Source of the DNA: Streptomyces sp. SID8374
GTDB lineage: Bacteria > Actinomycetota > Actinomycetes > Streptomycetales > Streptomycetaceae
Length of the DNA stretch: 64,000 nucleotides
Assembly (NCBI RefSeq): GCF_009865135.1
Contig: NZ_WWGH01000001.1
Span: forward strand, 2,976,001 to 3,040,000
Direction of reading: 5' to 3'
Shown: in pieces, positions 24,094-57,720 of the stretch
Layout: the number at the start of each line of letters is the position of its first letter
How positions within the stretch are numbered: the first letter of the stretch is position 1
Translations under genes and position numbers: made by a program
Notes under the pieces: model-generated
Databases searched by the model: none
Seen by the model: only the letters and a program-made list of their open reading frames with translations
Told to the model about the DNA's origin: nothing

Positions 24094-24318
24094 GTGGCGA
24101 ATCCGAGCGAGAACCTGATCAAGCTGTGCCGTGCTGCTGTTGAGGCGGAGCGTGTGGCGCTGTCCCAGCCGTACACCGAAGAGGGCTGGAAGCCGTGGCG
24201 TGAGGCGGCAGAAGCGTTCCAGCGGGCCGTGACCGAGGAGGCTGGGGGCGGCAACCGGTTCGAGCTGGAGCAGGCGGCGAAGGAGGCTGTGCTCCACCCC
24301 GAGCCGGACGGCGAGTAG
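24094..24318 (+). CDS. hypothetical 74-aa protein
   Basis: GTG start at 24094. The protein is alpha-helical and charged (ENLIKLCRAAVEAERVAL, EAFQRAVTEEA), without signal or membrane segments. It resembles small Streptomyces proteins of unknown function. Earlier starts in the frame lack a ribosome site. Confidence 0.6.
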   Translation: MANPSENLIKLCRAAVEAERVALSQPYTEEGWKPWREAAEAFQRAVTEEAGGGNRFELEQAAKEAVLHPEPDGE

Positions 24319-24474
24319 CCCCGGACGCAGCCCCGCCCCCGTCCGGTTCCACTCGGGCGGGGGCGGGTTCAGAAGCAACACCCTGTTTCGCGGGCCCTGT
24401 GGGTCCTGGGGGTTGGTGGTTCCAGGTTACGGGGCCGGTATGACAATCCGGGTGGGATCAGACGGCGTGGCGGA

Positions 24475-25017: not shown

Positions 25018-25272
25018 TCACTGCTCGGTGGTGGCGGTAACCCGCTGCACTACAGGGGTCCCGTCGCGGACGACCTCAGTCCACCCGTCGGCCTCCAGAG
25101 CCAGGGTCCACGACTCTCCAACGCCGCTGCCCTTTGCATCGAGGGTCGGAAGCTCCGCCCCTCCCTCCAGTGCGGCAGTCGCGATGCTGTACGGGTCGGT
25201 CACGCCGTCGGGGACCTCAACCACGACGGTGGCGTAAGCGACCGTCTGGACATCGACTTGGTACCTGGTCAC
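25018..25272 (-). CDS. hypothetical 84-aa protein
   Basis: GTG at 25272 with AAGGAG eight bases upstream, 2 bp after the Phd-like gene. The sequence alternates hydrophobic and polar residues (YQVDVQTVAYATVVVEVP), which suggests beta strands. Its position directly after an antitoxin-type gene makes it a candidate partner, but it matches no toxin family I know. Confidence 0.6.
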   Translation of the reverse strand: MTRYQVDVQTVAYATVVVEVPDGVTDPYSIATAALEGGAELPTLDAKGSGVGESWTLALEADGWTEVVRDGTPVVQRVTATTEQ

Positions 25273-27774: not shown

Positions 27775-28878
27775 TCAGGGTGCGGCGGGATTGTCAGCGT
27801 CCCGGCCCTGTACCCGCAGCATGCTTAGCGCGGCGGATCGCCGACCGTCGTCAGTACGCTTTCCTGCTCGCCTCAAGCCGACCTTGCGATACTTTTCCAC
27901 CTGCTCCGTCGACGACCAGTCACCCGTGATCTCTTTGATCTCGGCAGCCGAGTAGCCCGCCGCCCCGAGATCCGTCGGCACGCCAGCTCGCAAGCCGTGT
28001 GCGGTGATGTCGGCTGCGACGTCCACCTCGGCGCGCTCCGCGATGCTTTTGACGAGGTTGTTCACCGCTTGTCGGGTCACACCCCATCCTTGCGGGCTGA
28101 CGCTGCCGAGGTTGCCCCAGCGGTCCACCGCGCGCAGCAACGGTAGACCGCGGCCGGTCTGACCGTTCTCTGCGAGATGGACGAGCCAGTCTTTCACCGC
28201 TGCGAGGCAGGCCGGGTCGTCGATCTCGTACTCCCGGCCGACATCGGTCTTGTCGTTCTTGCTCACGCGCTTCGTGGCGACCAAGAGCTCGGAGCTGACG
28301 AACTCAAGGTCGCCCACCCGTAGCTGAGACAGTTCGGAGGCGCGCGCCCTCATGTAGTACCCCAGCAGTAGAAGTACACGATCGCGCTTGCCGGCAGGGG
28401 TTTCTGCGGGGCAGGCGGCAAGCATGAGGCGAAGCCTCTGGAGGTCGACCGGAGCCGACGAGTTCTGCCCACGACCAGCTTTCTGCCAGGCGTGTCGATG
28501 GTCCTGGTAGATCTTGAGCGCCGCAGCCTGATCAGGATGTTGTTCGTAGCCAGCGCGGGCGTTCATGTGGCGGATGGCCGCGACGCTGAGGCGCAAAACG
28601 CCCGGCTGGAGGTCCCGCCTACGCAGATGGGAGATGTACGAGGTGAGGTTCTCCTCGCTCGTGGGAGGCCCTGGCATGCGCCCCAAGGGTGCGCACCAGC
28701 GCGCGAAGGCCTTCCAGCGGTCTTCATAGGTCTGTCGCGTGTTCTCCCGCCCTGAGTTGGCGAGGTCTTCTGCGGCCTCAGGCGTGAGAGTCGCGTTGAT
28801 GTCTACGACAGCCGGCAAGGCTGACGTCTCAGCCGCCACCAGCTCGGCATCATGGACGGCTTCGAGTTCGGCGGTCAC
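27775..28878 (-). CDS. int: tyrosine recombinase (phage integrase)
   Basis: 367 aa from a GTG at 28878 that overlaps the stop of the upstream gene (GTGA). The N-terminal core-binding domain (about 40-140) has TRQTYEDRWKAFARWC. The catalytic part shows Arg in MRARASEL, His-x-x-Arg in AHGLRAG, GDWSS in place of the more usual GHxS (Trp for His) and the nucleophile Tyr in VEKYRKVG. It integrates and, with a directionality factor, excises the element. Its target is not proven; the tRNA-Arg 8 kb away is one candidate. Confidence 0.93.
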   Translation of the reverse strand: MTAELEAVHDAELVAAETSALPAVVDINATLTPEAAEDLANSGRENTRQTYEDRWKAFARWCAPLGRMPGPPTSEENLTSYISHLRRRDLQPGVLRLSVAAIRHMNARAGYEQHPDQAAALKIYQDHRHAWQKAGRGQNSSAPVDLQRLRLMLAACPAETPAGKRDRVLLLLGYYMRARASELSQLRVGDLEFVSSELLVATKRVSKNDKTDVGREYEIDDPACLAAVKDWLVHLAENGQTGRGLPLLRAVDRWGNLGSVSPQGWGVTRQAVNNLVKSIAERAEVDVAADITAHGLRAGVPTDLGAAGYSAAEIKEITGDWSSTEQVEKYRKVGLRRAGKRTDDGRRSAALSMLRVQGRDADNPAAP

Positions 28879-35889: not shown

Positions 35890-36834
35890 TCAGGGGGTGA
35901 CGGTGAAGCCGGCGCGTTTGCCGAGTCGGGTGAGGGAGTCCTTGCCGGGGATGCCGTCGGCGGCGCTCCCGGTGTAGCCGCCGCCGGCCTTGGACTTCTG
36001 CCAGCGGGAGTAGGCGGTGACGGTGGCGGTGCCGAAGTGCCCGTCGAGGAGGGGCTTGGCCAGGTAGCCGGCGTCGACGAGGGCGGCTTCGACGATGCGG
36101 ACCCCGGGGTAGGTGACCGGGGTGCCCTTCGCCTTCGGGTTCGAGCGGGCGGCGGCGATGAGCTTGGACAGGTCGACGACCGGCGCCTTCGGCGGAGTGG
36201 GCATCGTCGGAGTGGTGGGCGGCTTGGTGGGCGCCGGATCCGGCGTGAGGCGCTTCCCGATCCGGTCACGCATGGAGTTCATGGTGAAGCCGCGCGGGTC
36301 GATCTTGCCGGGCTGCCATTCGAGGTGCCCGATGACGGAGCGCTCGGACCAGCCGTGTGCCCGACAGATTGCGGCGGCGGCCCGTTCGATCGCTTCGAGC
36401 TGGGCGGCGGGCCAGGGGTCCTGTCCGTTGCCGAGGTTGACGCATTCGAAGCCGTAGAAGTACCGGTTGCCGTCGGTGTTGGCCTCGTTGTCGGTCGGCA
36501 GGCTCTTCGCTTCGGCGGTGACGGCGCGGAGGACGTCGCCGTCGCCGAGTCCGGCGTGGTTGGTGCGTCCGTTGCCGACGAGGTGGACGACTCCGGCTTT
36601 GTCGATGACGCCGTGGCAGAGGGGTCCGGGGAGGGAGCTGTGCCCGTTGTAGCAGAGCTCGACGCTGTTGGCGGATCCCGTGGTGACGGTGTGGTGGATC
36701 ACCACCCCGTGTACCGGACCCCACGGTCCCTTGTGGTTGCGGTTGTTGGTGCGCCAGTTGCGGTGTTCGACGACGGTGAGGCCTTCGTTGCGGAGGGCTT
36801 TGAGGAGCTTGTCGGCTGTGAGTGGTGTGGCCAT
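35890..36834 (-). CDS. endolysin, N-acetylmuramoyl-L-alanine amidase
   Basis: 314 aa. Residues about 25-190 are an Amidase_2/PGRP domain: zinc ligand region VVIHHTVT (His47/48) and the later GHLEWQPGKIDPRG. A proline-rich linker (PAPTKPPTTPTMP) leads to a C-terminal peptidoglycan-binding repeat (VRIVEAALVDAGY...DGHFGTATVTAYSRWQ), closing with GIPGKDSLTRLG. It cuts the amide bond between MurNAc and the stem peptide at the end of the lytic cycle. There is no signal peptide, so it needs the holin. Confidence 0.92.
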   Translation of the reverse strand: MATPLTADKLLKALRNEGLTVVEHRNWRTNNRNHKGPWGPVHGVVIHHTVTTGSANSVELCYNGHSSLPGPLCHGVIDKAGVVHLVGNGRTNHAGLGDGDVLRAVTAEAKSLPTDNEANTDGNRYFYGFECVNLGNGQDPWPAAQLEAIERAAAAICRAHGWSERSVIGHLEWQPGKIDPRGFTMNSMRDRIGKRLTPDPAPTKPPTTPTMPTPPKAPVVDLSKLIAAARSNPKAKGTPVTYPGVRIVEAALVDAGYLAKPLLDGHFGTATVTAYSRWQKSKAGGGYTGSAADGIPGKDSLTRLGKRAGFTVTP

Positions 36835-36877
36835 GGTGTCTCCTGCGGGGTGGCGGGGTACTGACCCGCATCGACCG

Positions 36878-36933
36878 TTGACCTTTGAATCATAGGCTTC
36901 CGATTCGCATATGCCTACGATTCCAAGGTTCAG
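36878..36933. promoter_or_regulatory. imperfect long dyad in divergent late promoter region
   Basis: Between the endolysin (-) and the small-gene cassette (+) is an inverted repeat of two 18-nt arms (about 36880-36897 and 36913-36930, 15 of 18 matching) around GATTCmAAGG. The same element recurs near 57665-57710, the other divergent control region of this phage. It is a candidate binding site for a phage transcription factor driving late genes. Confidence 0.6.
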
Positions 36934-37045
36934 GGGTTATGCTTCCCTCGGGTCGCCGCTTCACCGGTCCACCCAGCGGCGGGCTCCTTCTGGCAAGGGG
37001 CGAGCCCGCCGCCACCCTTGCCAACCCCCTTGCCGAGGAGTCCTC

Positions 37046-37513
37046 GTGTCCGATCACGCCACTTCGCCGTCGCTCCGGAAAACGCCCACCTTGCTGGCCA
37101 TCGGCCGTGACGGCAGTGTCCACAACGTCGCCGTCGAGGGGCCTTTCACGGAGGCCGCCCGCAAGCGCGTCGAGGGCATCTTCAAGGGGCGGCGTTTCGT
37201 CCGGTACACCGTGCTCAACGACCAGGGCGCACCGACTGACTGGATCGACGTACCGCTCGGATTCGCCGGTCCCTACGAGGGTGAGCCCAAGTGCAGCCTC
37301 CCTGCGCCAACCGCTGAAGGCCCGAGGGCTGACGCCGAGCGTGATGGGCGCCGTCAGCTCCGCAACGCCCTTCGAGTTCTGTGGGAAGCAGGGTTCGCGT
37401 TCGGGCCCGAGCTAGTCGACGTGGCCGAGTCCGAGACTGCCACCCTCTACCGGCAGTGGCGGGAGACGGGCGTGGACCCGGGGCTCCAGCAGCAGGAGGC
37501 CCCCGATGCCTGA
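37046..37513 (+). CDS. hypothetical 155-aa protein, first gene of inserted plus-strand cassette
   Basis: GTG at 37046 with GAGGAG upstream. The N-terminal half is beta-rich (LLAIGRDGSVHNVAVEGP, RRFVRYTVLNDQGAP); the C-terminal half is helical (RRQLRNALRVLWEAGFAFGPELVDVAE). No family recognised. It overlaps the next gene by 8 bp, and the cassette genes follow closely, so they are one unit against the direction of the late operon. Confidence 0.65.
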   Translation: MSDHATSPSLRKTPTLLAIGRDGSVHNVAVEGPFTEAARKRVEGIFKGRRFVRYTVLNDQGAPTDWIDVPLGFAGPYEGEPKCSLPAPTAEGPRADAERDGRRQLRNALRVLWEAGFAFGPELVDVAESETATLYRQWRETGVDPGLQQQEAPDA

Positions 37514-38261
37514 TGTTCAGGGTCATTGCCCGGCGTGTGGTGCCACCAGTCTGTTCCTCGGCGAGGGCGGACACGTCACCTGCGCCCGCATCGAATGCCC
37601 TAACCCGTGCGCCGCTGACGACCTGCTGCACGGTGGCGAGGAGGCGCTCGTGCATGCGCTGGGTGGCGACCGGACCGCGCGCGTCATCGCCTACAACCTG
37701 CACTGCCACGGGCACTCCCTCGCCGACGCACGCCGCATGACCGACGAGGAGTTCCGGGCCGTGCCCGGCATCGGCCACACGTCCCTCAGGCGCATCCGGC
37801 GGGCGTTCCCAGCGCAGCAGCCCCGCCTTCTCGACTGCGGGTTCTGCTACGAGGAGCAGGGCGAGGAGGTTCACCCGCACCCGGAGTGCGCCATCGGAAG
37901 CACCGCTCGTCAGCAGCCGCCCGTTGTAGCCACGGCACGTGTTCACGTGGACGTAGCCACCCCCACGACGGCGTACCTGACGGAGTTCGAGCGCGCCCAG
38001 GCTGTGGCGCGCGCTGAGGAGGCCGAGGCCGTCATCCGGCGGGTACGCGACGCCTCCGCCTTCATCCGGGCCACCACCCGCACATGGGACCCCGTAGCCG
38101 ACATCATCGACGCCGCCCTCGACGAGGACGGGGACCCCGTACACGCCCGCGTCGCCCTGGCCGTGCGTACCGTGCTGAACCAGGATCTCCCCGGCGACAT
38201 GGGCGGACACGTAGCCACAGCAGTGCTGGCCGTACTCCGCAAGGAGACCGGCGATGCCTGA
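37506..38261 (+). CDS. DUF6085-like zinc-finger protein with helix-hairpin-helix
   Basis: 251 aa. Residues 1-40 hold a four-cysteine motif (CPACG...CARIECPNPC), like DUF6085 of Streptomyces and their phages. A helix-hairpin-helix segment follows (ADARRMTDEEFRAVPGIGHTSLRRIRRAF, about 75-102), then a CGFC motif and a helical tail. Zinc finger plus HhH points to nucleic acid binding. Function not known. Confidence 0.7.
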   Translation: MPDVQGHCPACGATSLFLGEGGHVTCARIECPNPCAADDLLHGGEEALVHALGGDRTARVIAYNLHCHGHSLADARRMTDEEFRAVPGIGHTSLRRIRRAFPAQQPRLLDCGFCYEEQGEEVHPHPECAIGSTARQQPPVVATARVHVDVATPTTAYLTEFERAQAVARAEEAEAVIRRVRDASAFIRATTRTWDPVADIIDAALDEDGDPVHARVALAVRTVLNQDLPGDMGGHVATAVLAVLRKETGDA

Positions 38262-38409
38262 GCCGACCGACCCCATGACCGAGCTGGCCGCCGCAGCCGC
38301 CCAACTCCACGAGCTGTACGCCACCTACGTCCAGGCCGGGTTCACCGAACCGCAGGCATTCGAACTCACCAAGGCCGTCCTCCTCGTGCACATCGGCGGT
38401 GGGGCGTGA
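38254..38409 (+). CDS. hypothetical 51-aa protein
   Basis: ATG at 38254, overlapping the gene before by 8 bp and the gene after by 4 bp. An all-helical small protein (MTELAAAAAQLHELYATYVQAG, AFELTKAVLLVHIG). Typical actinophage small ORF without known role. Confidence 0.65.
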   Translation: MPEPTDPMTELAAAAAQLHELYATYVQAGFTEPQAFELTKAVLLVHIGGGA

Positions 38410-38873
38410 GCAACCGAAAGCTTCGGCTGAACCAAGTCCGGCGACACGGCGCACCGGAGGAAGTTGTCACAGTCACCGAGTGGGACGTCACACCTGGCCT
38501 CCATGCGTGGATCACCGAGGAGATTGGAAAGCTGGAGGCGGCGGCCAAACCCCTGGTCGCTCTCGGAGTCTGTCCCGAGTGGAGGCACTGCAAGCCAGAG
38601 TGCTACCACCCTGAGGGGCTGCCGACCAACGACTCGACGACGGCCCTCCGCCGGTGTGCCGCCGACCGGAAGATCCTCGCCGCGCACCCGTACAGCACCC
38701 AAGTCGTCAACCCCAGCTACGGGCCGCACAGCGCCGGGTTCGGGTGCGAGACCTGCCACGACTGGGACGGAGTCCCCGAAGGGCGCGGGGACTGCCCCAC
38801 CATCCTCGCCCTCGCCGAAGGCTACGGACTCGACGACGAAGACAACGCCGACGTGGAGGTCATCCGTGGCTGA
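38406..38873 (+). CDS. DUF6221-like protein
   Basis: 155 aa from a GTG inside the upstream stop overlap. The C-terminal half has DRKILAAHPYSTQV, CETCHDW and CPTILALAEGYG, which match DUF6221 as I recall it; the CETC and CPEW...CKPEC cysteines suggest zinc. Located mid-cassette. Function unknown. Confidence 0.68.
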   Translation: MSNRKLRLNQVRRHGAPEEVVTVTEWDVTPGLHAWITEEIGKLEAAAKPLVALGVCPEWRHCKPECYHPEGLPTNDSTTALRRCAADRKILAAHPYSTQVVNPSYGPHSAGFGCETCHDWDGVPEGRGDCPTILALAEGYGLDDEDNADVEVIRG

Positions 38874-39270
38874 CCTCGCCTGCCAGTTTCGTGTCTCCAC
38901 CCGTGCCGCAGGGCCGCTGCGTCGCGTCGCTGTCCAGGTTTACGAGGACTTGGCGGAGCTTCGTGTAGCCGCAACCCGGTACGTCGGTGCCGAGCCACTC
39001 CACTTCGCCGAGGCGCTCGGCGTCTGCCACGCCTACACCGGCGGCGGAACCACCGCCGCCCTCATCCGACTCTGGAGGCAACGCCTCGGCACCAGCGTCG
39101 TCGTCCACGAAGTCACCCACGCTGCCATGGGCATATACCGCACCGACTGGCAACCCGACCACGGCGGCCCGAACGACGACCTGGACAACGAAGAGGTCCT
39201 CGCCTACCTCGTCGGCAACCTCACCAGCCGCATAGTCGACCGCCTCCACCACCACGGGATGTACCCATGA
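38866..39270 (+). CDS. small HExxH zincin-like protein
   Basis: 134 aa from a GTG at 38866, overlapping the preceding gene by 8 bp. It carries VVHEVTHAAMG, a full HExxH metallopeptidase motif, with a possible third ligand Glu in DNEEVLAYLVGNL about 28 residues later. The N-terminal part is beta-rich. No signal peptide is present, so it would act inside the cell. Possible roles are cleavage of a host or phage regulator, or a non-proteolytic metal site. Confidence 0.75.
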   Translation: MADLACQFRVSTRAAGPLRRVAVQVYEDLAELRVAATRYVGAEPLHFAEALGVCHAYTGGGTTAALIRLWRQRLGTSVVVHEVTHAAMGIYRTDWQPDHGGPNDDLDNEEVLAYLVGNLTSRIVDRLHHHGMYP

Positions 39271-39653
39271 GCAGCAACTTCTACGTCCTCTGCGTGTCCC
39301 ACGACCGCCTGAGCACCGAGCACAGGACAAGCGGAGACGCAGCCGAAACCATCAAGACAGGAAGCGACCTCCACCCCGGGTGCGATCTCGTCATCGAGGA
39401 AGTCTCCGGCGGACCGGTCGAGATCGGCTGCCCGCCAGCCGACTCCAGGGATGCGGGGCCGCGCTGCTACCACCGTGACGTGCGGTGGGTTGAGGTCGAG
39501 TGGCTTCGCGTTCTGTCCCGGGCGTACACGTCGACGGACCCGAAGGTCGCCGAAGCTGTGCGGCGGGGGCGCTTCACCTGCTGGCCCCAAGAGCGGCTCC
39601 ACCGGCTACGAGGGTCACTCGGCATCGAGGATGAAGCGAGAGAACGCCCGTGA
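39267..39653 (+). CDS. hypothetical 128-aa protein
   Basis: ATG overlapping the previous stop by 4 bp. Contains HPGCDLVIEEV and CYHRDVRWVEVEWLRVL, with scattered cysteines. A moderately basic C-terminus (RRGRFTCWPQERLHRLRG). Last complete gene of the plus-strand cassette. No family recognised. Confidence 0.65.
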   Translation: MSSNFYVLCVSHDRLSTEHRTSGDAAETIKTGSDLHPGCDLVIEEVSGGPVEIGCPPADSRDAGPRCYHRDVRWVEVEWLRVLSRAYTSTDPKVAEAVRRGRFTCWPQERLHRLRGSLGIEDEARERP

Positions 39654-39722
39654 CCGCCTGCCCGTTCTGCGAGATCAACGACGGGCGTGCGCCGCCACCT
39701 TCATCGCGCGACTCCACCACCA
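39650..39722 (+). pseudogene. truncated HIT-like N-terminal fragment
   Basis: A GTG overlapping the upstream stop opens a frame beginning TACPFCEINDGRAP, very like the first strand of HIT-domain proteins (CxFCxIxxGxxPA). After about 15 residues it changes to low-complexity sequence antisense to the tail gene that ends at 39723. I read it as a HIT gene cut off at the junction with the late operon, a trace of the cassette's insertion or deletion history. Confidence 0.4.
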
Positions 39723-40010
39723 CTAGGAACCGCGCACGACCACCATGCCCAGCTGCTGCCCGTAGGTGGCCCGGAACTGGTCCGGTGTCCACGCCCGGCC
39801 AGCAGCCAGAAACACCGGATCCACCCGGGCACCACCCACCGCCCCCTCGGCGACAATCAGCACCCAGCCCACCACCGAGCCACCAGACGGCACCCCGGAC
39901 ACATCAGTTCCCGAAGGCGCCGCCACCTCGACGCGAAGCCCATCGAACGCCGGGACCATGCCCACAACACCACCGGGCACACCCTGACCACCCTCAACCA
40001 TGATCGGCAT
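39723..40010 (-). CDS. hypothetical 95-aa tail-region protein
   Basis: ATG at 40010 with GAGGAG four bases upstream, 8 bp after the tail fibre gene. Gly- and Val-rich beta sequence (VGMVPAFDGLRVEVAAPSG, VVGWVLIVAEGAVGGARVDPVF), perhaps a small structural or chaperone protein for the fibre. Last gene of the leftward tail block before the inserted cassette. Confidence 0.6.
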   Translation of the reverse strand: MPIMVEGGQGVPGGVVGMVPAFDGLRVEVAAPSGTDVSGVPSGGSVVGWVLIVAEGAVGGARVDPVFLAAGRAWTPDQFRATYGQQLGMVVVRGS

Positions 40011-40018
40011 TCCGCTCC

Positions 40019-42652
40019 TCAGGTCATCAGCAGCGGCAGGAGCTTGCTGGCAATGTAGGCATGCCCCGCATCCGACGGGTGCACCGAATCCGAGGAACCC
40101 GCCGCCCCAGGGGTGGCCTGATCACCCCAGTAGCCCAACCCCTGCCAGTACGCGTAGTTGTTCTGACCCATCGGCCACAGATTGACAAGGGCCGCCCCGT
40201 ACTCCTCGGCGATCCCCCGCATCCGGGCCCCGTACTGCGAGTAAATCGTCCCCGCGAAATTCCCGCGATGCTGCATCACCAGCAGCAGATCCGTGGCCCC
40301 GGTACCCGTGCCCTTGATGGTGTTCAGCGTCGAGTACACGTTCGCCGCCCACGCGTCGAGGGTGACGTTCTGGTTCGCGTCGTTCAGCCCCAGCGCGTAA
40401 ATCACCAGGTCGGCAGGCTGCGACGTCCCACCGTGCCACAACGTGTTCCCCGTGCCTGACACGAAGTAGTGCGACGTCTGCGCACCGCTCCGCCCGGCAT
40501 TATCGACGATCACACCCGTGTCCCGCTCCCCCGCCACCCCGATCAACTGAAGGCGAGCACCAGCAGACCCGTTGTACGAGATCACCACCGTGTGCGTACC
40601 AGCAGACAAGCCGGTGATGGTCTGGGTTCGGACCGACGCCGAGCTCAGCCCCGGATCCGCCACGGCCACAGCGGCAGCCCCATCGATCGCGTAGGTGTAG
40701 CCGGCGTTCGGGGTGTTGACCCCCGCCAGCGTGTAGATCTTGATTGTGGAGCCGCGCACGGTGAAGGTAGCGGTGGCTGCGGCGGTGGCGTAGATGCTGC
40801 TGATGCCCGGCCCGTACCACAGAACGGTGTCGGTCCATGTGCCGGTCGTGGTGGCGATGGACTGGTTGGCCTGCCAGGCGGCGATCGCTTCAGGCTTGGC
40901 CCCGATGATCGCGGGGGTGCGGTTCACCGAGTACAGGCCGCTGCCGCCATCCCCATAAGCCGACTGAAGGGCGGTACGCAGGATTCCGACGTAGCTCTTG
41001 GAGACTAGGTCGGAGCAGTAGTACCCCTTCGTCACCGAGTCGCCCACCGCGATGATCCGGGCCTTGCCCGTACCAGCAGCGTCACGCTTCGCCCGCCAGA
41101 ACTTCCCCCACCCGTCCGGGACATACACACCCAGCTCCCCCGCCGAACGGGGCCGGGCAGTGCGAGCCGCAACCGTGGTCGCCCCCCGCACGGTGGTGAT
41201 CGACGACCCCAGGCGAACCGTTGTGTTCGTCCCGTCGTCGAACAGCCCGCCCGACGCGGCATGCAGGTAGGCGTCATCCAGGAGCACCGTGGAAGCCCCG
41301 GACAGGCGTACCCCGTACTGGGGGCTGTTCGTCGACCCCCCGCCGTCATCCACCCCTGGGTAGCACGTCACCCCGTTCACCGTGACCGGCACCGTCGCCC
41401 CCACCACAGCCAAACCGGCGAACCCGCCGCCACCGGTGCCGCCGTTGCGGCCGTCGCGGCGAGTCATGAGCCCAGTGATGAGGATGGGGGTGTTACCCGT
41501 GGCGTCCACGAACACGCCGTGCTGCCCATTGCGGTCCGTGGAGCAGCCGGTCATCTGCATGCCACCGGAGCCCTGCCAGTCCCCCCACGCCCCGGTGATG
41601 CGGTACCCGTGGGAGCCGCACCACTCCACCCGGCAGCCAGCGAGCTGGGCGTTTGTGCAGTTGGTGAGGACGATGCCCTGCGCCTGGCAGCCGAGTACCT
41701 GTACGTCGTCGAGGGTGAGGTCGGTGTTGCCGTTGAGCAGGATGCCGTTGCTCGTACACCGGTTGATCATGACGTTATGGAGGCGCCACGAGTACGGGCG
41801 GATCCCGCCCGCCTGCCCGGTGATGATCCCGTTGTTCGGCATACGCCGGATGCACACATCGCGCATCACAACGTTCTGCACGTTGCCCTTCGCATACAAC
41901 CCATCCACCGACCCGGTGATCTGAGACCCGTCGATCATCAGGTTGAACAGGCGCTGCTCGCCGTTGATCGCCGGGTGGGTACCATCGTCCTCTCCGATGA
42001 TCTGGAGCACACTCGACCCGGTGAACGGCACGGCGGCCTCGATCCAGCACGGGTAGTCGGCCTCCGTCATCCCCGGGCCGATCATCAGGTTCGAGTGGGT
42101 TCCCAACAGGGTGATCCCCGGCGGCAGGTCAAGAGTCGCCGACACCTTGTAACGGCCGGCAGGGAAGTACACAACTCCACCGACCGGGCATGCGGTGATC
42201 GCCGCCTTGATGGCGGTCGTGTCGTCCGCGGCTCCGTCACCCAGCGCCCCGTGGTCGGTCACGAATTGCCAGTCCAGCACCGACGGCAGGCGGCCCGCCG
42301 GCACCCTGCCCCCAGGGTCCAGGGATGGCCAGCCGCCGGGCAGGTCCTTGAGGGCCAGGTGGTCCTGGAGGATGGTCCCCAGGTCCACTGCGGCGGCGGC
42401 GTAGCGGCGCCCGTATCCGAAATCCATGTACAGGTGGGTGATGCCGTCGGGTCCGAAGAACGCAACAGCCCCGTCGCCGTCGGCAGTGACGGTGCTGATG
42501 GGTGTGCCTGCCAGGTCGGTGAGGTCAGTGATCTGGGTGCCGTCGGAAGCCGCATCCCAGATGGTGCCCGTAGCTCCGGGGCGGACCAGGAGCTGGTTCC
42601 CGACTCGCTCCATGGCGTAATCGGACGTAGAGCCCCCGAAGAGGTGGCGCAT
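40019..42652 (-). CDS. tail fibre/spike: beta-helix plus SGNH (GDSL) hydrolase
   Basis: 877 aa. A short N-terminal attachment part (about 1-125) is followed by a right-handed parallel beta-helix of pectate-lyase type (about 130-490), starting HGALGDGAADDTTAIKAAI. A C-terminal SGNH hydrolase (about 530-877) shows block I VGDSVTKG, block III GLNDANQ and block V SDSVHPSDAGH. It also contains an inserted beta domain. Such fibres bind and trim surface glycans; SGNH enzymes often remove acetyl groups. Likely host-recognition protein. Confidence 0.88.
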   Translation of the reverse strand: MRHLFGGSTSDYAMERVGNQLLVRPGATGTIWDAASDGTQITDLTDLAGTPISTVTADGDGAVAFFGPDGITHLYMDFGYGRRYAAAAVDLGTILQDHLALKDLPGGWPSLDPGGRVPAGRLPSVLDWQFVTDHGALGDGAADDTTAIKAAITACPVGGVVYFPAGRYKVSATLDLPPGITLLGTHSNLMIGPGMTEADYPCWIEAAVPFTGSSVLQIIGEDDGTHPAINGEQRLFNLMIDGSQITGSVDGLYAKGNVQNVVMRDVCIRRMPNNGIITGQAGGIRPYSWRLHNVMINRCTSNGILLNGNTDLTLDDVQVLGCQAQGIVLTNCTNAQLAGCRVEWCGSHGYRITGAWGDWQGSGGMQMTGCSTDRNGQHGVFVDATGNTPILITGLMTRRDGRNGGTGGGGFAGLAVVGATVPVTVNGVTCYPGVDDGGGSTNSPQYGVRLSGASTVLLDDAYLHAASGGLFDDGTNTTVRLGSSITTVRGATTVAARTARPRSAGELGVYVPDGWGKFWRAKRDAAGTGKARIIAVGDSVTKGYYCSDLVSKSYVGILRTALQSAYGDGGSGLYSVNRTPAIIGAKPEAIAAWQANQSIATTTGTWTDTVLWYGPGISSIYATAAATATFTVRGSTIKIYTLAGVNTPNAGYTYAIDGAAAVAVADPGLSSASVRTQTITGLSAGTHTVVISYNGSAGARLQLIGVAGERDTGVIVDNAGRSGAQTSHYFVSGTGNTLWHGGTSQPADLVIYALGLNDANQNVTLDAWAANVYSTLNTIKGTGTGATDLLLVMQHRGNFAGTIYSQYGARMRGIAEEYGAALVNLWPMGQNNYAYWQGLGYWGDQATPGAAGSSDSVHPSDAGHAYIASKLLPLLMT

Positions 42653-51688: not shown

Positions 51689-52183
51689 CTACGGTGCTGC
51701 TTCGAGTTCGCGGAGCTTTTGCGCCCAGTAGTCGACGTCCGCCTGGTCGGACTGGGTGCCGGGTGAGAGCTGGTTGAGGATTGCCTCGGAGTAGCGGACC
51801 CCTGCGGCTTCGAGTGCGGCTTGCTGCTCGTCGGCTTCCGTGGCCGGTGATTCGACGGGGGGCATGTCCGGTGGTTCGCCCTTGAGGTGGGCGGCCCATA
51901 GGACTCGGATCATGAGGAGGAGGGCGTTGTATTGGGCGGCCTGGATGTAGGTGCCCTGCGTCCACCGCCGTCCGTCCATGTCCCCCGCTGCTGCCGCCTT
52001 GGTCGCGGAGTCCTCTGGCAGGTGCTCAACCAGGTCCCGGAGTTCAGCCCAGGACATGGACCCCTCGCCCCAGGACATGGCCCAGAACTCTTCTAGGCGG
52101 CGGCCTGGGTAGTACCGCTGGATGTCGGCTCGGACGGCTCCGGGGTGCTCTTCGAGGAGCTGGAGGAGCCGGAGCCTTCCCCC
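51689..52183 (-). CDS. tail assembly chaperone, frameshift part (gpT-like)
   Basis: The conserved sequence extends upstream of the first ATG (52078) without a stop: LLQLLEEHPGAVRADIQRYYPGRR continues into MSWGEGSMSWAELRDL. That is the gpT pattern of tail assembly chaperones, and it overlaps the end of the gpG gene in the -1 frame. The protein is therefore made as a G-T fusion by -1 frameshifting; the start given is the proposed slip site. It helps build the tail around the tape measure. Confidence 0.82.
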   Translation of the reverse strand, partial: GGRLRLLQLLEEHPGAVRADIQRYYPGRRLEEFWAMSWGEGSMSWAELRDLVEHLPEDSATKAAAAGDMDGRRWTQGTYIQAAQYNALLLMIRVLWAAHLKGEPPDMPPVESPATEADEQQAALEAAGVRYSEAILNQLSPGTQSDQADVDYWAQKLRELEAAP

Positions 52184-52521
52184 GTGTCGGTGCCCGCCTC
52201 CCCGTTGATCTCCTTGAGGAGTTCGGTGAGTTCGCCGACGGTGAGCTGGGCGACTTCGACGAGCTGGTCGAATGCTTCGGGCGGGGTGGCGATCTTGCGG
52301 AGGATGCTGAGGTTGGTGCTGTCGCTGTCTGCTTCGACGGCCTTGACGACGACGAGGGGCCAGTGGTCCTGGGTGAGGAACGAGCAGGTTCGCTCTCTGA
52401 CCTCGGCCTCGGTGTCACCGGGGACCTCGAAGACTAGGTCGACGTGCTTGACCCCGGCCTTCTGGGCGATCTGGGCGCGCATCTCCTGGAGGCGGATGAC
52501 CTTGCGATTCGGCTTGGACAT
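52093..52521 (-). CDS. tail assembly chaperone (gpG-like)
   Basis: 142 aa. Conserved core EVPGDTEAEVRERTCSFLTQDHWPLVVVKAVEA, then a Ser- and Pro-rich tail (SGSSSSSKSTPEPSEPTSSG). It lies between the tail tube and tape measure genes, the standard place for the gpG/gpGT pair. The frameshift region is near its end. Confidence 0.83.
   Translation of the reverse strand: MSKPNRKVIRLQEMRAQIAQKAGVKHVDLVFEVPGDTEAEVRERTCSFLTQDHWPLVVVKAVEADSDSTNLSILRKIATPPEAFDQLVEVAQLTVGELTELLKEINGEAGTDTGEGSGSSSSSKSTPEPSEPTSSGTTQAAA
52177..52183 (-). other. candidate -1 programmed frameshift site
   Basis: On the coding strand the heptamer GGGGGAA (codons ACG GGG GAA in the gpG frame) lies just before the start of the conserved gpT sequence. 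Shifting back one base joins gpG to the open gpT frame. The P-site codon re-pairs perfectly but the A-site does so only partly, so this is not a textbook slippery site. The frameshift itself is well supported by conservation; the exact site is less certain. Confidence 0.6.
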
Positions 52522-52622
52522 GGGGTTGGTCCTCTACTCGGGCGGGGATGGGGCGGGGCTTCAGGTGGTCCGTCGCGCTCTCCCCGCCCCGGGTTGGAGC
52601 GCGACGGGCCACCAGTCGGGGG

Positions 52623-53213
52623 TTAGCCCTCTTCGATCTCGGGGACGGCGACGTCGGTGATCATGTGCTGGACCGATTGGGCGCCACCCGGGGCGGCGAG
52701 GGCGGTGAAGGTGAGCTCGAAGTTGGAGGAGTCGTCCGCGCTGTGCTTGCGGGCGCCTCGGTCGGACACGCCGCAGCGGGCGATCATGATGCGGTGGCGC
52801 TTGCCTCCGTAGATGACGTCCAGGCCGAGGGCGATCTCCACCGTGTCCTGGGTGCTGCCCGAGCCGAAGGAGACGAACTGCTTCTTGCCCGCAGCCGCCG
52901 CCGTGGACGTCATGTTCGCCATCTTCACCTGGTAGTACAGGGATAGCAGGCGGGCGTTGGTCTGCCGGAACGTCAGCTTGAATGTCTGATTCCGCTTCTT
53001 TGCGAGGTCGACCACGGGGGCGTCCTCGCCCCACGCGTCGAGCTGCGTGCGCTCTTCGGCGAGCGCCTCTTCCAGTCCGTCGGGGGTCACGAACCCGAGG
53101 TCGGTGAAGTCGGCACCCCACGCGAGTTCGGGGCCGAGGGGGAAGGTGGAGCCGACCTCGGCGGCGTATGCCTTGCCCGCTGTGCCGACGATGATTTCTG
53201 CCGAGTCGCCCAC
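52623..53213 (-). CDS. major tail (tube) protein
   Basis: 196 aa from a GTG at 53213. The blocks AWGADFTDLGFVTPDGLEEAL and NQTFKLTFRQTNARLLSLYY are typical of actinophage tail tube subunits, with a beta-rich C-terminus. It lies between the tail terminator and the tail chaperones. Confidence 0.88.
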   Translation of the reverse strand: MGDSAEIIVGTAGKAYAAEVGSTFPLGPELAWGADFTDLGFVTPDGLEEALAEERTQLDAWGEDAPVVDLAKKRNQTFKLTFRQTNARLLSLYYQVKMANMTSTAAAAGKKQFVSFGSGSTQDTVEIALGLDVIYGGKRHRIMIARCGVSDRGARKHSADDSSNFELTFTALAAPGGAQSVQHMITDVAVPEIEEG

Positions 53214-55491: not shown

Positions 55492-55869
55492 TCAGTACGC
55501 CTTGGGGAGCTTGAACACCGTGATCGTGCCGGTGGTGCCGGACGCGAAGTCGACGTACAGCTTCGAGCCCTTCTGCTGGAACCGGGCCGAGGTGAACGGG
55601 CCGATGAACTGCTTCCCGGACGTCGCCGCCACGGTGGTGGCACTGTCACCCTGGCCGCCCATCCACGCCTGGGTCCCCGTACCGGCCTTGACGGTGACGA
55701 CCTTGTCCGTGCCAGCGGTGTTCGTGACGCGGATGAGGGTGCGCTCGGGGTCGACGTTGTTGACCACGACCCCGTTCGTGACGAGCGTGGAGTCGATCGT
55801 GGTACCCGCCGGGTCGGCGAGCGCACCGTTCGGGACGAACGGCGTGTACGGAACTGCGGTGCGAGGCAT
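55492..55869 (-). CDS. capsid decoration-type protein
   Basis: 125 aa. Beta-rich (LVTNGVVVNNVDPERTLIRVTNTAGTDKVVTVKAG, GSKLYVDFASGTTGTITVFKLP), following the major capsid gene. Actinophages often carry a small beta-sandwich head decoration protein here. Function inferred from position. Confidence 0.68.
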   Translation of the reverse strand: MPRTAVPYTPFVPNGALADPAGTTIDSTLVTNGVVVNNVDPERTLIRVTNTAGTDKVVTVKAGTGTQAWMGGQGDSATTVAATSGKQFIGPFTSARFQQKGSKLYVDFASGTTGTITVFKLPKAY

Positions 55870-57566: not shown

Positions 57567-57720
57567 CTCGGTGCCTCCTTGGGCGGCCTACACGCGATCG
57601 GCGGCGCCTTGTCCGCTGGCGTGTTAGCCCAGATGTTAACCCTGAACCCACCACAATGCTGCACAATCAAAGGTCATAGCGCAAGATGTCCTTAGAATCC
57701 AAGGATCAAGGGGGTGGGTG
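57567..57720. promoter_or_regulatory. divergent late control region between scaffold and MuF
   Basis: A 154-bp gap between the leftward capsid/tail operon and the rightward packaging block. It holds two same-direction copies of AATCmAAGGwyCA at about 57666 and 57697 (31 bp apart), the element also found at 36880-36930. The right copy runs into the ribosome site (AAGGGGG) of the MuF gene. Candidate late promoter/activator region. Confidence 0.55.

Follow-up and report, generated by a model that had tools for sequence, protein, structure and literature searches.

An exchangeable accessory gene slot in a Streptomyces prophage, with twin operator-like sites and a leader that can fold as a pseudoknot

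Why does a set of small genes run against the late genes of a prophage, and what controls it? The question is raised by a 64,000-nucleotide (nt) stretch of the Streptomyces sp. SID8374 genome (NCBI RefSeq assembly GCF_009865135.1, contig NZ_WWGH01000001.1, positions 2,976,001 to 3,040,000; hereafter the window), which carries a prophage. Six plus-strand genes, A to F, form a cassette at 37046-39653 that lies antisense to its surroundings, flanked by a minus-strand amidase endolysin gene on one side and by a 95-amino-acid (aa) open reading frame (ORF) and a tail protein gene on the other. A preliminary description of the window, made from its letters, had taken these genes for an exchangeable accessory locus in which new defense or counter-defense functions might be found. 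The comparisons reported here suggest that the cassette probably occupies an exchangeable accessory slot with shared twin-operator control and a structured leader that is likely to limit translation. In sequence terms, they establish the recurrence of the twin sites, the recurrence of a predicted pseudoknot with repeats before the ribosome site, and the exchange of genes on both sides.

Results

Twin operator-like sites separate the endolysin and the cassette

The region between the divergent endolysin and cassette contains a pair of near-palindromes at a spacing of 32 nt, followed by a promoter-like element:

36882-36896, no strand assigned: O1, operator-like 15-base-pair (bp) near-palindrome CCTTTGAATCATAGG
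36914-36928, no strand assigned: O2, operator-like 15-bp near-palindrome CCTACGATTCCAAGG, facing the cassette
36938-36943, plus strand: candidate -10 element of the cassette, TATGCT

O1 itself contains a minus-strand promoter-like hexamer, TATGAT (36894-36889). The 16-base arm of the dyad has two matches in 64 kb when up to three mismatches are permitted, vs. 0.07 expected, and both are at the control region. The upstream dyad is not a product of chance; the preliminary description had already placed a dyad of its own before the cassette, and the twin-site and pseudoknot layout goes beyond it. In the genus, the strict dyad was found in 3 of 392 genomes, each time beside the phage slot, and a relaxed twin-site pattern in 3 of 121 genomes; in the class, the relaxed pattern occurred in 1 of 197 genomes, the window's own. 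Across all loci, the site pair precedes 39 of the 51 distinct motif instances at a spacing of 31-32 nt, and an upstream block of identical type stands before different first genes. A TANNNT hexamer follows O2 within 30 nt in 43 of 45 distinct leaders, a count made with no shuffle control, and a promoter scan of the window called no plus-strand promoter for the cassette. Blastn against INPHARED with two control-region queries gave no match, a weak test for such a short region. Lone operator-like sites at 25131-25145 and 57690-57704, with two mismatches to the 15-base consensus, may be chance occurrences or additional sites for the regulator of the pair.

The leader can fold as a pseudoknot

Downstream of the twin sites, the cassette leader has the potential for an H-type pseudoknot, with a loop complementary to tandem repeats that extend to the ribosome-binding site of gene A:

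36976-36986 and 37002-37012, plus strand: arms of pseudoknot stem P1, 11 bp, perfect
36991-37023, plus strand: pseudoknot stem P2, the loop at 36991-36999 pairing with repeat copy 1 at 37015-37023
37026-37034, plus strand: repeat copy 2, loop-complementary, directly before the Shine-Dalgarno sequence GAGGAG (37035-37040)

A strict form of this fold (perfect P1 of at least 10 bp, P2 of at least 8) was present in 16 of 17 aligned, partly related leaders, and shuffled sequences attained it in at most 1 of 1,000 cases per leader. Close relatives carry two leader types whose P2 elements are different throughout and whose layout is common. Among 45 distinct site-linked leaders there are 19 P1 ten-mers, some of which are shifted registers, and P2 elements as unlike as TGGCAAGGG and GTGCGGGT; the repeat is present in two copies in 26 of these leaders, three in 17, one in 1, and five in 1. 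The predicted pseudoknot rests on complementarity that is kept through sequence change. Folding z-scores for six leader segments ranged from -0.7 to -3.4, with three of the segments clipped by the coordinates chosen. A search of Rfam 15 with the window stretch and ten loci gave no match over any leader, and its weak matches lie elsewhere.

Independent scans recover the same arrangement

IMG/VR was scanned by the twin-site pattern alone, which returned 44 stretches on 43 contigs, and each was read with a fixed pseudoknot rule (P1 of at least 9, P2 of at least 7, within 170 nt). A pseudoknot was found on one side in 40 of the 42 readable stretches and on both sides in none; L081 and L243 were unreadable (79 and 65 nt downstream), and L084 offered only 62 nt on its other side. 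The same rule held in 55 of 2,640 random windows of these loci (2.1%). Among the 40 leaders are 39 distinct sequences, which fall into 25 clusters when grouped at about 90% likeness.

The converse scan, for a tandem repeat plus GGAG, covered 113 newly fetched loci and gives counts that are lower bounds: at least 116 matches were scored, at least 29 with P1 scoring 9.5 or higher and at least 78 at zero. Among the 29 listed high-P1 matches, 24 have the operator pair, 1 is cut off, and 4 (L150, L155, L166, and L182) lie behind a codirectional gene and are without the pair. A covariance model built from eight leaders gave matches at an expectation value (E) of 0.1 in 44 of 150 genomes, most of them weak. 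One of these genomes, G141 (locus L090), has operators, P1 (GGCGGCAGGGG), P2 (TGCGGGTT), and repeats in the same layout and a different sequence; another, G041 (L091), shows the arrangement at a tail-type junction, where the sites are absent. The region L232 (G141:C2:1206000-1225500) is distant and prophage-like, and has the module together with cassette ORFs that cluster with epimerase/glycosyltransferase families.

Slot content differs among relatives at a fixed site

Relatives of the slot were sought with the conserved minor tail protein and with genes B and E. The minor tail protein query returned 11 IMG/VR loci, 23 of 392 genomes at E 1e-20, and 5 plasmid records; a contig scan with the same protein gave 27 stretches that fit the pattern, none of which was confirmed. 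The slot count excludes L062, whose contig ends close to the slot, the distant L063 and L064, in which no slot was called, and L013 and L060, copies of L012 and L017; it includes L061, where the tail fiber has plus-strand genes next to it and no endolysin side was recognized. Small plus-strand genes occupy the slot in all 16 readable relatives, and by eye the gene set of each of the 16 is unique. Three of the 16 are circular plasmid records (88-93 kb) that contain phage genes; their slots have four, one, and three antisense genes. Because the site is constant and the genes in it vary from relative to relative (16 of 16), the identification of an exchangeable accessory locus is well supported, in agreement with the preliminary description; the alternative, a cassette fixed in all relatives, fails on this comparison. 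In L017, the first cassette gene (after the P1 at 7813) appears to be an in-frame fusion in which the start of a helix-turn-helix (HTH) regulator is joined to the gene B zinc ribbon, likely a recombination scar.

The genes of the window's slot and its borders are given below, with the number of the 16 relatives that match by tblastn at E 1e-3; dN/dS is the ratio of nonsynonymous to synonymous substitution rates, and HhH the helix-hairpin-helix motif.

35890-36834, minus strand: endolysin (amidase), divergent from the cassette; Pfam Amidase_2 4.6e-22, phrog_880 3e-75
37046-37513, plus strand: gene A, 155 aa, first cassette gene, without a family match; 0 relatives
37506-38261, plus strand: gene B, 251 aa, zinc ribbon (DUF6085) and weak HhH; Pfam 1.3e-6, phrog_4125 4.7e-12; 9 relatives
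38254-38409, plus strand: gene C, 51 aa; phrog_11511 2.5e-5; 6 relatives
38406-38873, plus strand: gene D, 155 aa, CxxCH and EGRGxC conserved by eye in an alignment of 7; 10 relatives
38866-39270, plus strand: gene E, 134 aa, HEVTH mini-metalloprotease-like from alignment, AlphaFold2 (AF2), and BFVD; 2 relatives
39267-39653, plus strand: gene F, 128 aa, function unassigned; dN/dS 0.15-0.20; 11 relatives
39650-39727, plus strand: HIT-domain gene remnant, in frame for the N-terminal codons and out of frame after; HIT start in 4 relatives
39723-40010, minus strand: late ORF of 95 aa that closes the slot on the far side; relatives in several slots
40019-42652, minus strand: tail fiber/minor tail protein, convergent with the cassette; phrog_11699 5.9e-83

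Genes on both sides of the module are exchanged

The proteins encoded on the other, divergent side of the module also vary; those that could be named are endolysins of more than one class. Ten were scanned: Amidase_2 was found in four (one below the cut-off), CHAP in one, and GH25 in one; the protein of L245 is papain-like below the cut-off and matches phrog_16701 (peptidase), and another is peptidoglycan-binding, also below the cut-off. Divergent proteins beyond these ten were named endolysins from the sequence start or from similarity by eye.

On the cassette side, 44 leader-linked loci yielded 256 ORFs in 84 families, 49 of which occur in a single locus; these counts are approximate, as the simple script that called the ORFs missed gene C, gave no gene for L206, and probably produced false ORFs (family F9), and family F2 chains B-like, XRE-like, and HTH proteins. 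The recurrent families are a Cys-rich protein (20 loci), D-like proteins (18), the chained B/HTH group (15), an NAD-dependent epimerase (14), a group-1 glycosyltransferase (13), F (12), an Rv2179c-like exoribonuclease (7, always the first gene), and HIT (4). Pfam scans of one representative per named family gave Epimerase at 1.8e-39, Glycos_transf_1 at 1.2e-10, and the Rv2179c-like exoribonuclease at 5.6e-13, and one member of the group-1 glycosyltransferase family corresponds to phrog_7162, category moron. Epimerase, glycosyltransferase, and exoribonuclease cargo would fit lysogenic conversion or host takeover.

The cassette genes of the window

Several particulars of the preliminary description hold. 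It had counted at least six tightly overlapping plus-strand genes, and neighboring ORFs from A to F do share 4 or 8 bases each; it had placed them between endolysin and tail fiber and against the late genes, which the family matches to both neighbors bear out. Nei-Gojobori dN/dS for B, C, D, E, and F was 0.11-0.38 in eight pairwise comparisons. Gene A is assigned from its frame, ribosome site, and position because no relative was available for dN/dS. The zinc finger/HhH protein of that description is retained in part: the N terminus of gene B passes the Pfam cut-off for the DUF6085 zinc ribbon narrowly (28.8 vs. 27.1 bits), and its HhH match lies below the cut-off (E 0.043). The predicted structure of gene B reached a predicted local distance difference test (pLDDT) value of 52.5 and was not used. 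Gene D had been called DUF6221-like, an assignment rejected here (Pfam E 0.084, 14 vs. a cut-off of 27.6 bits).

Gene E, described previously as a HExxH mini-protein, keeps that description. H81, E82, and H85 of its HEVTH motif and the downstream E110 are invariant in all 5 aligned sequences; by sequence, with HExxH and a downstream glutamate, gene E qualifies as a mini-metalloprotease-like protein. One AF2 model of five was usable (pLDDT 79.8; the other four, 35-37). Compared with BFVD, this model retrieved 11 small phage proteins at E of 0.001 or below, the best at 1.0e-8, one of which carries a metalloprotease annotation; sequence and fold searches of the PDB gave nothing at E 0.001 or better.

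The cut HIT fragment reported at the cassette end is also real. The protein is intact in L018 (11089-11508; Pfam 1.5e-15) and its gene is disrupted in the ORF calls of L025 and L032 as well; a HIT gene that is whole in some relatives and broken in others looks like decaying cargo. A known anti-phage defense system was considered as the identity of the cassette and rejected on the PADLOC-DB result, in which 0 of 7 cassette ORFs gave a match at E up to 1. The proposed defense or counter-defense role thus receives no direct support, and what stands of the earlier interpretation as a whole is the exchangeable accessory locus.

Elsewhere in the prophage, a 367-aa ORF at 27775-28878 (minus strand) resembles a tyrosine integrase by eye only, and a search for a repeat of the tRNA region that could serve as an att site found none of at least 15 bases. 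Interlocked inverted repeats at 24304-24367 end a small plus-strand ORF; their topology is leader-like, and they may be a terminator.

A second copy lies at a tail-protein junction

The window contains the layout a second time, among the late genes:

52548-52610, minus strand: second pseudoknot layout; the major tail protein gene (52623-53213) lies on one side and the late gene that follows it (52093-52521) on the other

The gene before the junction encodes the major tail protein (phrog_117). The layout was present in 12 of 12 distinct, related sequences upstream of MSKPN(R/K)(K/R) starts, and changes in P1 keep the pairing. The gene behind the junction has no PHROG match; to call it a "tail assembly chaperone" would be to argue from its position before a long tape-measure-like ORF. 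Programmed frameshifting at the junction was rejected because the structure sits between two genes, before the ribosome site, and not within an overlap.

CRISPR-like spacers match the prophage

Plasmid NZ_CP109310.1 of Streptomyces cyaneofuscatus contains 26 exact copies of a 29-base repeat resembling those of clustered regularly interspaced short palindromic repeats (CRISPR), in an array (L251 4996-6610) recognized by eye, with no search for cas genes made. Of 24 32-base spacers taken from it, two match the window perfectly, at 36865-36896 (across O1) and at 55580-55611.

Discussion

How might such a locus work? In the reading that we favor, a phage-encoded dimeric regulator would bind both twin sites and so control both promoters, that of the endolysin and that of the cassette. 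The cassette mRNA would start with the H-type pseudoknot leader, whose repeats run up to the Shine-Dalgarno sequence, and this leader may limit or conditionally repress translation of the overlapping genes behind it. Repression could follow either of two routes: pairing of the loop with the repeat beside the ribosome site, or nucleation of a protein on the pseudoknot and its spread over the repeats, in the manner of gp32 on T4 gene 32 mRNA. The cargo, judged by family names, would most likely consist of host-adjusting proteins that act to the benefit of the prophage, for example by surface conversion or takeover.

A set of observations weighs against this reading. No protein can be named as the regulator. 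L021 has a G.U wobble in P1 and fails the perfect-pair test, and the 17 aligned leaders include close relatives (L031 and L085 are nearly identical). Energy folding without pseudoknots lengthens P1 into the loop, and P2 in the window is possibly weak as a result. An upstream hairpin, P0, was rejected as a firm feature, with a stem of at least 5 in 45 of 45 leaders vs. 64% of shuffles. L235 and L237, from one 133,886-base contig (IMGVR_UViG_2974628900_000001), have twin sites and no pseudoknot, and of ten weaker covariance hits read by eye, the eight besides L090 and L091 were unrelated to the layout. The 12 tail junctions come mostly from close relatives of the window plus three plasmid records and are not independent. 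Of the ten divergent proteins, two have no family match and two have matches below the cut-off other than amidase. The PADLOC-DB result likewise adds nothing in its favor.

The most serious rival is a classical moron, in which the cassette would be expressed in the lysogen from a dedicated promoter, an activator from host or phage would bind at the twin sites, and the leader would protect the 5' end of the mRNA and have no regulatory role. The separate candidate control region, the antisense orientation within the late genes, the exchangeable content, and the conversion-type cargo of sister cassettes all suit such an arrangement. The strict dyad is so rare in the genus, and so consistently beside the slot, that a regulator from the host is unlikely. 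The endolysin, too, faces the sites, and an endolysin should be silent in a lysogen. We regard this explanation as possible, on the unlikely side of even. Because the twin sites face both the endolysin and the cassette, co-regulation with lysis is a real alternative to moron-type expression, and sequence alone cannot tell whether the cassette is expressed in the lysogen or together with lysis.

A somewhat less probable explanation is that the paired repeats, instead of acting on translation, form a transcription terminator or roadblock, which would shield the endolysin from convergent late transcription and end the tail-protein transcript. Recurrence of the layout at the tail-operon junction is consistent with this, as are the GC-rich character of the element, its symmetry on both strands, and the position of the slot in the path of late transcription. 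A terminator scan made no call, a weak objection since the scan demands a T run; the repeats adjoin a ribosome-binding site in the instances read, for which a terminator has no need.

Less probable again is a role for the block as DNA only, either as operators or as recombination anchors, with the pseudoknot a by-product of inverted protein sites and the block mainly providing homology for cassette swapping. Near-identical leaders do stand directly before different first genes, and DNA sites, too, occur as inverted and direct repeats. Set against this are P1 sequences that are widely different with pairing kept and the occurrence of the layout at an operon junction without the operator pair. 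That the locus is a decaying cargo island without present function is very improbable: the HIT gene is broken in the window and disrupted in two relatives, but dN/dS for B to F is low, the overlapping frames are intact, and the control module is retained across distant phages.

Comparison with known systems separates the familiar from the new. Phage morons and lysogenic-conversion loci (compare PMC7067206) resemble the cassette in being small foreign genes among late genes, on the opposite strand and with a control region of their own, for which the cassette has a candidate. Variation of content between relatives and the surface-glycan-type genes of sister cassettes extend the likeness; the difference is that the control module here stays in place as an anchor, common to cassette and endolysin, and is not part of the exchanged unit. 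For the leader, the nearest worked-out analogue is the T4 gene 32 operator (PMC535899), which consists of a 5' pseudoknot followed by a less structured stretch of short repeats that includes the ribosome-binding site. The likeness, a pseudoknot and tandem repeats up to the ribosome-binding site, is one of sequence layout, and no common descent is claimed; the present locus differs in its repeats, which are rich in GC and can pair with the loop of the pseudoknot, and in its cassette genes, which are not known single-stranded DNA-binding proteins.

In phage lambda, the OL and OR repressor-operator regions place paired palindromic sites near divergent promoters. The paired palindromes are shared with the present locus; the sides here are lysis and accessory genes. 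Structured RNAs in Rfam include cis-regulatory leaders with covarying stems, a type that the leader resembles, and differ in that there was no Rfam 15 match to it where searched. Literature searches on Streptomyces phages brought up no title or abstract opening that describes the module, which is weak evidence of absence. The cassette belongs to the known category of exchangeable accessory slots, and the control module and its RNA layout are the surprising part.

A wider proposal, which we put forward tentatively and consider doubtful, is that the module represents a new class of phage control element: twin operators and a tandem-repeat pseudoknot would together be a docking platform for the swapping of lysis enzymes and accessory cassettes, acting as an exclusive or coordinated switch between the two, and the RNA element would set protein ratios at the tail junction.

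Phage accessory loci are usually found singly. With the twin palindromes and pseudoknot leader as a short signature that can be searched for, an exchangeable locus can be recognized in phages that differ in other respects, and its unknown accessory genes gathered by location for joint testing. Should the leader prove to be a working RNA element, it would constitute a new family of phage cis-regulatory RNA, found before cargo genes and at a tail junction, and how phages keep their accessory and lysis genes apart, or together, would become testable.

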